From Lachnospiraceae bacterium (GTDB lineage: Bacteria > Bacillota > Clostridia > Lachnospirales > Lachnospiraceae), in NCBI GenBank assembly GCA_016290615.1, contig JAEEUS010000019.1:1-35208 (forward strand): a DNA stretch of 35,208 nt. Reading direction: 5' to 3'. The notes under the pieces are model-generated. The model was not told where the DNA came from. It saw only the letters and a program-made list of their open reading frames with translations, and did no database searches. Positions 1 to 18,261 of the stretch are shown here, one piece after another (the first letter of the stretch is position 1; each line of letters opens with the position of its first letter). The position numbers were made by a program, and so were the translations under genes.

Positions 1-66
1 TTCAGACTCGATCCGAGACGGACTGTTTTCTACGGTATATGTAAGGCATGCAGTGAGAAGGAATAG
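1..66 (+). CDS. Fur-family metalloregulator, C-terminal fragment
   Basis: The first 22 codons are open from the window edge to a TAG stop and encode a tail containing VFYGICKACSEKE. This resembles the end of Fur/Zur/PerR proteins, where a hydrophobic strand is followed by a G-x-C-x-x-C structural zinc motif. Only the last 21 residues are visible, so the metal sensed cannot be read directly. The genes directly downstream encode a zinc-type ABC importer, which makes a zinc-responsive (Zur) member the best guess. The next gene begins within about 10 bases of the stop, so both are probably co-transcribed. Confidence 0.7.
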   Translation, partial: FRLDPRRTVFYGICKACSEKE

Positions 67-14829: not shown

Positions 14830-16152
14830 ATGAAAAAGGTAGTAAAGTTCGGCGGAAGCTCACTTGCCAGTGCCGAACAGTTTGAAAAGGTCGGAGATAT
14901 CATCAGAGCCGATGAGAGCAGAAGATATGTGATCCCCAGTGCACCTGGAAAGCGTTTTGACGGTGACACAAAGGTAACGGATATGCTCTATGGCTGTTAT
15001 GCTCTTGCTGATGAAGGCAAGAAGTTTGATGCAGAGCTTAAAGCGATCAAGGAAAGATACAACGAGATCATTTCAGGACTTAAGCTTGATATGACACTTG
15101 ATCCCGAATTTGAGGAGATCGAGAAGAATTTCAAGGCAAAGGCCGGCAGGGATTATGCTGCAAGCCGTGGAGAGTTCCTAAACGGAAAGATCATGGCAAA
15201 GTATCTCGGATATACATTCGTTGATGCCGCAGAAGTTATCAAGTTTGATGAAAACGGCGATTTCGATTCCGAGAAGACCAATGAACTTCTGGGCAAAAAG
15301 CTTTCAAAGCTTGATAATGCGGTTGTTCCAGGATTCTACGGAAGCATGCCAGATTCAAAGGTAAAGACCTTTTCAAGAGGCGGATCCGACATAACAGGTT
15401 CCATCGTTGCAAGAGCGGCTCATGTTGATGTATATGAGAACTGGACTGACGTATCAGGTTTCCTGGTAGCTGATCCCCGTATAATAGATAATCCCGAGGG
15501 AATCGAGACCATTACATACAAGGAGCTTAGAGAGCTTTCATACATGGGAGCAGGCGTACTCCATGAGGATGCTATCTTCCCTGTAAGAATAGAAGGAATA
15601 CCGATCAATATCAGAAATACAAATAAGCCTACGGATAACGGTACATGGATCGTAGAGAGCACATGCCAGAAGTCAAAGTATACCATAACAGGTATAGCGG
15701 GCAAAAAGGGATTCTGTTCAATAACCGTTGAAAAGGACAAGATGAACTCAGAGATCGGTTTTGGTCGCAGAGTTCTCAATGTATTCGAGGATAACGGCAT
15801 AAGCTTCGAGCATATGCCCTCAGGAATAGATACACTTACCGTATTCGTTCATCAGGACGAGTTCATGGACAAGGAACAGCGCGTTGTATCAGGCATACAT
15901 CGCCTTACAAATCCCGATACGATCGAGATAGAAGCAGACCTTGCACTGATCGCAGTCGTTGGACGAGGCATGAAGTCACAGAGAGGTACAGCCGGAAGGA
16001 TCTTCTCGGCACTGGCTCATGCAAATGTCAACGTAAAGATGATCGACCAGGGTTCGAGCGAGTTAAACATCATCATCGGTGTATCAAACAACGATTTCGA
16101 AGTAGCCATAAAGGCTATCTACGATATCTTCGTAACTGCACAGCTTGCTTAA
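14830..16152 (+). CDS. lysC: Aspartate kinase
   Basis: A 440-residue enzyme phosphorylating aspartate, first step to lysine, threonine and methionine. The kinase start VVKFGGSSLASAEQF, the substrate motif KTFSRGGSDITGS and DPRIIDNPEGIETITYKELR are clear. The C-terminal third contains two ACT domains (one near GIAGKKGFCSITVEK, the other near ALIAVVGRGM), which usually bind lysine or threonine for feedback control. Length and domain order suit the monofunctional class with a large kinase domain. Which amino acid inhibits it is not readable. A strong terminator lies just after the stop. Confidence 0.92.
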   Translation: MKKVVKFGGSSLASAEQFEKVGDIIRADESRRYVIPSAPGKRFDGDTKVTDMLYGCYALADEGKKFDAELKAIKERYNEIISGLKLDMTLDPEFEEIEKNFKAKAGRDYAASRGEFLNGKIMAKYLGYTFVDAAEVIKFDENGDFDSEKTNELLGKKLSKLDNAVVPGFYGSMPDSKVKTFSRGGSDITGSIVARAAHVDVYENWTDVSGFLVADPRIIDNPEGIETITYKELRELSYMGAGVLHEDAIFPVRIEGIPINIRNTNKPTDNGTWIVESTCQKSKYTITGIAGKKGFCSITVEKDKMNSEIGFGRRVLNVFEDNGISFEHMPSGIDTLTVFVHQDEFMDKEQRVVSGIHRLTNPDTIEIEADLALIAVVGRGMKSQRGTAGRIFSALAHANVNVKMIDQGSSELNIIIGVSNNDFEVAIKAIYDIFVTAQLA

Positions 16153-16158
16153 AATTCG

Positions 16159-16188
16159 CGGAGCATGAACAACATGCTCCGTTTTTTT
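16159..16188 (+). terminator. Intrinsic terminator after hom-lysC
   Basis: A nine-base perfect stem (CGGAGCATG with CATGCTCCG), five-base loop and seven T's. This closes the glyA-to-lysC cluster and isolates it from the RNA gene downstream. The bases 16189-16295 are very AT-rich with no feature recognised. Confidence 0.93.
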
Positions 16189-16295
16189 AGTTGTCAAATT
16201 GTCTGAAATAAACCTACAAAATAAATAAAATATGCAAAAGCAAGATTACATAATATTAAATAGAATAAAAATAATAAAAATAATTTAAAATTGTG

Positions 16296-16323
16296 TTGAC
16301 AAAATAAATATACATGTTATAAT
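16296..16323 (+). promoter_or_regulatory. Consensus promoter of the non-coding RNA
   Basis: TTGACA (16296-16301) and TATAAT (16318-16323) are both perfect consensus hexamers, spaced by 16 bases, and the -10 is extended by TGT. It sits in AT-rich DNA. No other promoter in the window is this close to consensus, and it does not lead directly to a protein-coding start. Confidence 0.85.
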
Positions 16324-16329
16324 AAGTAC

Positions 16330-16640
16330 ATAAATAAAACAAACACAAATCTAACAAAGGAGGAACAGTCCACCGGAAAGATAAGTGTATTATTATAAAT
16401 GGCATAGCAAGTGGGACGTAAGTTGGTGACAGCCGGATGAGACCTGAAAAAATTCGATAGTAGGGTCCAGGTGTTACAGTACATGAGTACAAAGAGAGAA
16501 TACGTCGAATATGTGTCGGTACAACTGAATAGCAGAGGATGAAGTCTAGTATAGAAAGAGAGGTATAGTCCATTGGATTCATCAGTTTAACGGCGGGTAT
16601 CAATATAAATCAGGATTGGTACCCGCTTTATTGTTGTGTC
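16330..16640 (+). ncRNA. Candidate structured non-coding RNA, about 310 nt
   Basis: A segment richer in G and C than its AT-rich flanks begins a few bases after a consensus promoter and ends at a terminator-like hairpin. No plausible protein is encoded on the plus strand. Several complementary segments are visible: AGTCCA 16367-16372 with TGGATT 16574-16579; CACCGG 16371-16376 with CCGG(A)TG 16433-16439; ACCTG 16442-16446 with CAGGT 16468-16472; GTAC 16479-16482 with GTAC 16487-16490; GATGAA 16538-16543 with TTCATC 16578-16583. Some are mutually exclusive. Purine-rich linkers such as AAAGAGAGAA resemble unpaired loops of large RNAs. I do not recognise the family: it does not read as tmRNA, SRP RNA, 6S, RNase P or a known riboswitch. 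A regulatory or structural RNA is inferred. Confidence 0.7.
16593..16629 (+). terminator. Terminator-like hairpin at RNA 3' end
   Basis: A 12-base stem, GCGGGTATCAAT (16594-16605) pairing with ATTGGTACCCGC with one G-U pair, around a ten-base loop, followed by the modest T tract TTTATTGTTG. It could both terminate the RNA and form its 3' structural domain. Confidence 0.65.
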
Positions 16641-16676
16641 CAAATGAAATTAAGCTTTCTTTAAGAATTTATATAT

Positions 16677-16749: not shown

Positions 16750-18261
16750 ATGTCAGATTTGGAACGTACATCGTCGTGGAACGGATTAGAGATCATAGAA
16801 GAATCCGACGATGTAATGGCCGCACAGGCTAAAGAGGGCGGCGAAAACAATACGAATACAGAAGCAGCACCTGAAGGCGCAGGTAATGAACCTAAGGATG
16901 ATAAGCCGGTAAGAAAGCTCACACCCCAGGAAAAAAGGGCAGAGAGACAAAAAAGAAGAAAGCACAACAGAATAGTTGCATTTACGGTCTTTTTTGTAGT
17001 CATAGCGCTTCTTGTGGCGGGAGGTATCTTTGGATATCTGGCTATCGGAAACAAGAAAGAAGAAACTCCTCCTGCAGCTGTCGTAGAAGAGATACCGGTT
17101 ATCGAAGAAGAAAAGCCCGTTGTCGATATGACTCCAGAGATAGTGGAAGAACCTGAAGAGGAGCCGACTCCCATACCGGAGCCTGAACAGACGCCTGAAG
17201 AGATCTTCGAAGAAATGATCACAAATATGATCGCAGAAATGACTCTCGAGGAAAAGGTTGCAGGTCTATTTATCGTAACACCTGAGTCGCTCACCGGACA
17301 GCAGGCAGTTACAAAGGCAGGAGACGGAACAAAGGAAGCACTTGAGAAATATCCTGTCGGCGGAATCGTGTATTTTAAGCAGAATATAACATCTGCAGAT
17401 CAGATCAAGGAGATGATCGATAATTCAAATAGCTACTGCAGATTTCCTCTGTTTATTGCCGTGGATGAGGAAGGCGGAGATGTAGCAAGGATACAGCAGG
17501 CATTAAAGCTGGACAAGACGGCTACCGCGCAGGAACTTGGCGAAGAAAACAATACGATAACGACCTTTGATGCTTATGACACAATAGGCAAGAGACTTAC
17601 GGAATATGGCTTTAACCTTGACTTTGCGCCTGTTGCGGATGTATTGACCAATCCGGACAACAAGGCTATAGGCAACAGATCATTCGGCTCAGATCCCGAT
17701 GTTGTTGCAAATATGGTGGTTTCAGCCATGGGAGGACTGCAGCAGAATGATGTAGTGACCTGTGTGAAGCATTTCCCCGGTCAGGGCGATGCAGACGGCG
17801 ATACTCACAAGGCACTCGCTTCAAGCGACAGAACAAAATCCGATATAGAAAACTGTGAGCTGGTTCCGTTTAAGGCAGCTATAGAAAACAATGTCGACAT
17901 GATCATGGTCGGACATCTTTCTGTACCCGAGCTGATGCCGGAAAATCCCAACCTTCCATGTTCGCTCTCAAAGGAGATCATGACAGATCTTTTACGTGTA
18001 AACATGGAATACAAGGGTGTTATAATCACCGATTCGATGAGCATGGCTGCCATATCCGAATATTACGGAGCTGACGAGGCCGCAATAAAGGCATTAAAGG
18101 CAGGAGCTGATATGATACTTATGCCGGAGGATTTCGAACTTGCATTTAACGGCGTTGTCGATGCAGTAAAAGACGGTACAATAGATGAGCACAGGATTAA
18201 CGATTCCCTTGAGAGAGTATATAAGATAAAGTACAGGGATATCCTTGCAATAGCAGAGTAA
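16750..18261 (+). CDS. Membrane-anchored GH3 beta-N-acetylhexosaminidase (NagZ-like)
   Basis: A 503-residue protein: cytoplasmic acidic then Lys/Arg-rich tail (about 1-75), one membrane helix (about 77-100), an outer Pro/Glu-rich linker (about 105-155), then a GH3 domain to the end. Catalytic features are VDEEGGDVARIQ, KHFPGQGDADGDTH (the NagZ-type acid/base His/Asp loop) and ITDSMSM with the probable nucleophile Asp. NagZ-type enzymes remove N-acetylglucosamine from muropeptides; Gram-positive members act outside the cell, as the topology here predicts. The GQG replaces the more usual GHG in the loop. The long N-terminal cytoplasmic tail is unusual. Confidence 0.85.
   Translation: MSDLERTSSWNGLEIIEESDDVMAAQAKEGGENNTNTEAAPEGAGNEPKDDKPVRKLTPQEKRAERQKRRKHNRIVAFTVFFVVIALLVAGGIFGYLAIGNKKEETPPAAVVEEIPVIEEEKPVVDMTPEIVEEPEEEPTPIPEPEQTPEEIFEEMITNMIAEMTLEEKVAGLFIVTPESLTGQQAVTKAGDGTKEALEKYPVGGIVYFKQNITSADQIKEMIDNSNSYCRFPLFIAVDEEGGDVARIQQALKLDKTATAQELGEENNTITTFDAYDTIGKRLTEYGFNLDFAPVADVLTNPDNKAIGNRSFGSDPDVVANMVVSAMGGLQQNDVVTCVKHFPGQGDADGDTHKALASSDRTKSDIENCELVPFKAAIENNVDMIMVGHLSVPELMPENPNLPCSLSKEIMTDLLRVNMEYKGVIITDSMSMAAISEYYGADEAAIKALKAGADMILMPEDFELAFNGVVDAVKDGTIDEHRINDSLERVYKIKYRDILAIAE

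Follow-up and report, generated by a model that had tools for sequence, protein, structure and literature searches.

STAB-SD elements sit in the leaders of long mRNAs, lambda-bar-type minigenes consist of an AUG, one codon and a stop, and CsrB-type protein sponges carry repeated GGA motifs in hairpin loops. In the available text of the respective reports, the STAB-SD of Bacillus cry3A-type leaders is a strong Shine-Dalgarno (SD) site without a start codon (PMC3997798), the fthC motif is an upstream open reading frame (uORF) attenuator with an SD-like site, a start codon and a stop located in or at a hairpin near the terminator (PMC11109978), and the raiA-motif RNA (ModT) is a structured RNA with a conserved sigA-type promoter that is widespread in Bacillota (PMC11706538). 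Here we analyze an element at positions 16296-16640 of a 35,208-nt stretch of Lachnospiraceae DNA (assembly GCA_016290615.1, contig JAEEUS010000019.1, forward strand; the whole stretch is henceforth referred to as the window), which a preliminary description made from the sequence had presented as a free-standing, structured non-coding RNA. Sequence comparison establishes the promoter, the covarying structure, the SD sites and the frame-specific stops of this element, and on these grounds it is a free-standing RNA gene belonging to a family that spans many genera. As a tentative reading, a little short of probable, we suggest that it may be a ribosome-docking RNA, acting as a decoy or buffer for initiating ribosomes or as a gauge of free initiation capacity.

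The 3' Shine-Dalgarno module and its mini-ORF

The best-conserved block of the element, GAGGTrnAGTCCATTGGA, has the layout of a translation start. On the plus strand of the window, an SD site with its conserved spacer (AGAGGTATAGTCCA, 16559-16572, delimited by alignment and pattern search) leads into the mini-ORF TTG GAT TCA TCA GTT TAA (16573-16590), which would encode MDSSV and whose frame is conserved in relatives. The preliminary description saw no protein frame here, having missed this five-codon open reading frame (ORF), and its non-coding label does not suit an RNA that is conserved most strongly at a translation start and the mini-ORF behind it, and that carries another SD module near the 5' end. 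The 16S gene of the same genome (1550 bits) ends in TGGATCACCTCCTTT, the anti-Shine-Dalgarno end. As a separate observation, GGAGGU and UCCA within 16559-16575 of the window could jointly pair with the 3' end of the 16S RNA (UGGAUCACCUCC) around an internal loop, a match that may be due to chance.

A motif scan of named genomes returned at least 119 stretches, and the majority of the 80 titles listed are Lachnospiraceae. Among 134 distinct motif matches, the 108 with a strong hairpin were kept and the 26 without one were set aside (18 of these 26 are titled among those listed, and 17 of the 18 titles are not Lachnospiraceae). The start-codon frame stops at the hairpin foot after 5-11 codons in 106 of the 108 hairpin-bearing copies, with the stop placed -4 to +2 nt from the computed hairpin start in 104 of these 106. 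Within a zone of -7 to +5 nt, picked after the spread was known, stops occur in 106, 20 and 4 of the 108 copies for the start-codon frame and the two others, respectively, and in 104, 19 and 4 within -5 to +5 nt; a cruder test, in which the stop must end no later than 3 nt past the hairpin start, scores the three frames at 87, 36 and 43 of 108. The two misses are L075, where the frame-0 stop is absent, and L133, which runs to 15 codons; both were dropped from later sets, except for the neighbour count, which dropped L133 only. Start codons in this first set are TTG (97) and ATG (11), the pattern having also permitted GTG, and the stops are TAA (39), TAG (39) and TGA (28).

Since the first pattern demanded NTGGA, the rule was retested on copies found in another way. 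A covariance model of the 3' module (R1) matched 144 of 299 sampled Lachnospiraceae genomes, representing 298 genera, and 123 of the 245 good ones. Sixty further R1 matches were fetched by hand-picking, mostly strong matches that lacked a locus, along with a few from near-complete assemblies. With no start codon demanded, 38 of the 60 could be parsed, 35 of them lying outside the first pattern, and the frame-0 stop falls within 5 nt of the hairpin start in all 38, against 11 and 2 of 38 for the other frames; these copies are not wholly independent, because R1 was built from motif-bearing sequences. Among the 22 unparsed matches, inspection by eye finds an SD site, a start codon, a short ORF and a stop against the hairpin in 21, with L296 unclear. 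Parsed copies start with ATG (26) or TTG (12), and one GTG was seen by eye (L263). The proposition that translation holds the 3' module in frame is well supported by these frame counts.

Relatives of the element are also found in other families of the class. A class-wide pattern search matched 10 of 391 genomes, with 3 control matches, and its 11 places comprise the element of the window, five such RNAs (L171, L172, L173, L175 and L176) and five places that are not (L166-L169 and L174). BLAST with one such RNA matched 36 of the 391 class genomes. Seventeen genomes from seven families besides the Lachnospiraceae were read and hold an RNA with this layout, L182 being represented by its 3' half only; among the other 19 BLAST matches, several look low-complexity. 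In all 19 loci (18 distinct RNAs) retrieved by a pattern for an MLDIKSEQK-like peptide, the 3' ORF of these RNAs encodes MLDIKSEQK or a close variant, more distant in L176 and L206, and its stop lies at or inside the hairpin foot. A common origin of the RNAs in Lachnospiraceae and in the other families would rest on the shared GGUACAGUCC-start block, the similar layout and brief resemblances within the core recognized by eye. Two further observations concern the surroundings of these relatives: a Gut-1 RNA (RF01706, 72.6 bits; L171:2092-2166) and a tRNA gene lie downstream of one of them, and in two families (L173 and L175) the RNA adjoins a gene read from the DNA as ThiF/TcdA-like.

The conservation of this frame, and its synonymous and conservative changes in the 19 pattern-found loci, would also be expected of a micropeptide gene, whose RNA serves to make an MDSIV- or MLDIKSEQK-like peptide, for instance a signal or a ribosome-stalling peptide. 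Preferences at codons 2-5 point in the same direction. MDSIV and MDEIV are the commonest peptides, 34 percent of the residues beyond the first are aspartate or glutamate across 123 distinct mini-ORFs, and codon 2 (GAN) varies chiefly at its third base among 64 distinct five-codon ORFs, a set partly selected for GA. The Lachnospiraceae peptide nevertheless varies, with 73 distinct outcomes among 108 copies and lengths of 5-11, and the long structured core would be superfluous, so that we consider a micropeptide gene unlikely.

Upstream modules and tandem arrays

The second SD module of the window RNA, identified by a pattern search of its own genome, lies towards the 5' end on the plus strand (16359-16384) and consists of GGAGG, a spacer and CCG GAA AGA TAA, with no start codon and a stop after three codons. 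Upstream modules take the general form GGAGGnACRGWCCA, usually followed by CCN at the start-codon position. In the start-codon frame, a stop occurs exactly two or three codons on in 58 of 67 copies and in 38 of 50 later ones, that is, in 96 of 117 against 16 and 5 for the other frames, with a few of the 117 being apparently false pattern matches. ATG occupies the start position in 8 of the 117, and in 49 of the 67 no ATG, GTG or TTG occurs in the stop-free stretch that precedes the module in the start-codon frame. Between the promoter and the 3' module, 63 of 89 RNAs hold one upstream copy, 3 hold two and 23 hold none by pattern.

The number of modules can be considerably larger. In a one-contig genome (L284, G274:C1:2346890-2347580; flanks in L297), eight tandem modules, most of them about 56 nt apart, lie behind a TTGACA/TATAAT-like promoter; their start positions read CCA, AAG, AAA, CCG, AAA, ATG, ATG and ATG, and an early stop follows each. 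Five upstream modules are found in L281, where the early stop is kept in four, and three in L277. In the other families the 5' module comes directly after the promoter and has a true ATG with one or two more codons (for example MRK, MRN, MR, MYK), and L175 presents three tandem MFR minigenes together with a 3' module.

These features can be accommodated in a tentative mechanism. A strong promoter would drive a structured RNA carrying one or more SD modules, the last of which would direct translation of a mini-ORF of 5-11 codons with its stop set close to the final hairpin. Where upstream modules occur, most have lost the start codon and kept a stop two or three codons on, or they constitute minigenes of one to three codons. 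Small subunits or ribosomes may dock at the modules, a docking that we infer at the 5' module because of its SD sequence, and the early stops would then abort any initiation and keep the folded core free of running ribosomes. The number of modules, from one to eight in the RNAs seen, might set the capacity of the decoy or buffer. In its most general form, the proposal is that of a new bacterial RNA class, distributed over many families of one class, free-standing, in which one to eight SD modules, most with an early stop even in the absence of a start codon, surround a variable structured core and regulate or signal the supply of initiating ribosomes by RNA alone; we put it forward as a possibility that is, on balance, open to serious doubt.

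Several observations weigh against ribosome docking as the function of these RNAs. The 5' module is not universal, given that it is missing by pattern from 23 of the 89 RNAs. Sixteen of the 117 upstream stops are one base out of frame, several of them in the form ACAGTA(A/G), a poor fit to a translation stop, and frame 2 presents a stop within the first five codons in 36 of 67 copies, mostly at other places. The spacer is conserved beyond plain SD need, which leaves room for a protein or a different RNA as the actual partner. Likewise, the 3' peptide displays amino-acid preferences (MDSIV and MDEIV, or MLDIKSEQK-like elsewhere) which a pure decoy would not need. Finally, many of the counted copies come from close relatives and are not independent.

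The main alternative, which we regard as doubtful and leaning towards unlikely, is a ribosome-stabilised regulatory RNA, in which a STAB-SD-like 5' module would block decay from the 5' end, the translated 3' mini-ORF would guard the 3' end and the core would act on mRNAs or proteins. A 5' module with a strong SD site and usually no start codon is what such an RNA should carry, and a core that has long-range covarying helices and differs between groups would agree with an effector role. On the other hand, stabilisation does not predict that stops should be kept after start-less modules, nor the existence of RNAs made up of almost nothing but modules (L284 and L175), and the pattern detects no 5' module in 23 of 89 RNAs.

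Repeated modules in variable number could also be read as a CsrB-type protein sponge, with the GGA of each module helping to sequester an RNA-binding protein, and the 5' copy can fold back on itself as a short stem-loop, GG(A)GGU/ACC(A)CC. This hairpin is, however, no stabler than shuffles (z -0.72 and -1.08), and the repeated GGA in hairpin loops that typifies such sponges is missing from many modules, which read GAGAGG...AGUCC with no GGA in the loop. Start codons and frame-specific stops would also be left unexplained, and we hold a sponge to be the most improbable of the explanations considered here.

Structure, promoter and gene context

The structure announced by the preliminary description is borne out both by energy and by covariation. 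The 310-nt fold reaches -75.8 kcal/mol, against -60.8 +/- 4.7 in 100 shuffles (z -3.16), and the terminal hairpin alone reaches -18.6 kcal/mol (z -4.91). BLAST located the element in 17 of 61 genomes, its own counted, and 16 sequences from the genus form the covariation alignment (A1). The compensatory changes in stems that the preliminary description had proposed to look for are present: the consensus structure derived from A1 comprises 39 pairs, 18 of which have changed on both sides. Its covariation score of 0.346 is reached by none of 500 shuffles, which ignore the relatedness of the sequences and score 0.208 +/- 0.012, and slid partners score at most 0.078, a control that favours the structure because the structure was derived from the same alignment.

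Most of the covariation evidence comes from three plus-strand elements. The first is a long-range helix (helix 3), with its 5' arm at 16415-16419 and its 3' arm at 16502-16506, in which 4 of 5 pairs have changed on both sides; the second is a hairpin at 16460-16477 (helix 4; 3 of 4 pairs); and the third is the terminal hairpin at 16592-16627 (helix 8; 13-bp stem and 10-nt loop, 8 of 14 pairs). The alignment also contains a GTAC-loop-GTAC hairpin (helix 5, 16479-16490, plus strand) that is nearly invariant in the genus, and inspection by eye shows hairpins of the CAGUAC type in further groups as well. The terminal hairpin begins one base past the mini-ORF stop and is terminator-like, with a weak U tail that extends to 16640. 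As a hairpin, the feature pointed out in the preliminary description is real; its role as a terminator is less secure, given the weak U tract and a terminator scan that lists the lysC terminator alone.

In the window, lysC ends at 16152 and its terminator stem, which has a T tail, spans 16158-16182; the start of the GH3 gene is at 16750. The RNA gene stands free between these two ORFs, as originally described. The same holds for its promoter, of sigma-70 type and on the plus strand (16296-16323), which pairs TTGACA (16296-16301) with a TATAAT ending at 16323 across a 16-nt spacer (12/12 matches), with TG preceding the -10. A TTGACN-15..18-TAWNNT site is present 5' of 89 of 97 homologues (those of the 106 with 620 nt upstream), where crude two-base block shuffles would yield an expected 2.4, and a looser pattern matched 46 of 59 in the later locus set. 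We infer that the transcript starts about 7 nt past the -10; the predicted transcript (16330-16635, plus strand, about 305 nt) takes its ends from the promoter position, the alignment of relatives and the terminal hairpin. The distinct composition attributed to the segment is apparent in a GC skew of +0.24 to +0.39 across 16350-16649, with a purine-rich sense strand.

An antisense ORF (16256-16603, 115 aa) was considered and tentatively rejected; long stop-free antisense stretches occur in relatives as well, as a purine-rich sense strand gives, but the longest such stretch is under 60 codons in two of 16 relatives (L007 and L008). The own genome holds a single copy of the RNA: the module pattern, with up to 3 mismatches, matches just the two modules of the window RNA, and R1 has one match. 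Elsewhere, a single contig with the title Eubacteriales (L036) has two RNA copies in the same orientation, 890 nt apart and with near-identical 3' modules (MDNEY and MDSEY).

The weak U tails (4.9 and 4.5 T in the first 8 nt) and the contact between stop and hairpin, within -4 to +2 nt in nearly every copy, lend themselves to a further interpretation, namely that of a leader or attenuator in which ribosomes translating the mini-ORF would impede the terminator, so that transcription could continue into the following gene, which here encodes a GH3 protein. A GH3 relative lies downstream in 30 loci. The upstream neighbour is a lysC relative in 17 loci, a protein read as an amidase adjoins the RNA in 12, and these contexts are unrelated; moreover, in 33 of 101 loci the next downstream ORF is encoded opposite to the RNA, and many downstream genes have, by eye, their own promoter. 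A role as GH3 leader was rejected as a general explanation on account of these varied and often opposed neighbours, and attenuation as such appears very unlikely to us. The varying contexts, the opposed neighbours and the promoters of the downstream genes argue instead for a gene of its own and not a leader, in agreement with the preliminary description.

The scan with all Rfam covariance models that this description had called for finds no family over the element, in the window or in relatives. With Rfam 15, the window yields no match at the gathering cut-off and the element none at E <=10, the sole match being RUF1 (14 bits) at 16150-16258, upstream of the element. Nine relatives scanned at E <=1 return no Rfam family over the element, and 20 further loci scanned at the gathering cut-off return one match, a tRNA. 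The earlier suggestion of a raiA-type RNA (RF03072) finds no support in these whole-Rfam scans, of which its model formed part. Other large RNAs were likewise discarded: tmRNA (RF00023) leaves the element unmatched and has its only match over the cut-off at C22 (145.5 bits), the genome's sole match to RNase P RNA (RF00010) is at C74 (302.5 bits), and the sole candidate for 6S RNA (RF00013) is elsewhere too, at C74:56020-56181 (33.2 bits, below the cut-off of 46.4). A likeness between the spacer AUAGUC and the bases that precede the tmRNA resume codon was dropped, the frame being unfit. The 6S-like candidate (L158, G000:C74:56020-56181) and the gene for RNase P RNA are separated by some 4 kb.

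Comparison with described systems

The RNA is not described in the literature searched, and it could appear as an unnamed entry among the 3161 candidate RNAs in the supplementary tables of PMC8040213, a source available in part. What emerges from the comparative analysis is an RNA that is frequent among gut and rumen bacteria and has no Rfam family; about half of the sampled Lachnospiraceae genomes carry its 3' module, and RNAs with the same layout occur in seven other families. If true, the use of start-less SD modules that keep their stops would add a new concept to translation control. STAB-SD elements, minigenes and uORF attenuators are known singly, and we know of no case in which they are united in a free-standing, sometimes tandem RNA.

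The element shares features with several described systems. As with tmRNA, a short reading frame lies within a structured RNA, although the element bears no match to tmRNA. The element has structure, a conserved promoter and a wide range in Bacillota in common with the raiA-motif RNA, and differs from it in its lack of any Rfam match and in its mini-ORF module, which the available part of the ModT report does not describe. As in uORF attenuators, a short ORF with an SD site stands before a terminator-like hairpin. According to the available text on the fthC motif, however, those attenuators precede one type of gene, whereas the RNA analyzed here is free-standing and, in place of a fixed downstream gene on the same strand, has varied and often opposed neighbours. 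The 5' modules of the other families resemble lambda-bar minigenes in joining a strong SD site to an AUG, one or two codons and a stop (MRK, MR), and differ from them in residing within a conserved, structured RNA gene. With STAB-SD elements, finally, the element shares a strong SD site devoid of a start codon in its 5' part, an upstream module being detected in 66 of 89 RNAs, but here the whole gene is a free-standing RNA, in which a stop is kept two or three codons on and the modules are sometimes arrayed in tandem.
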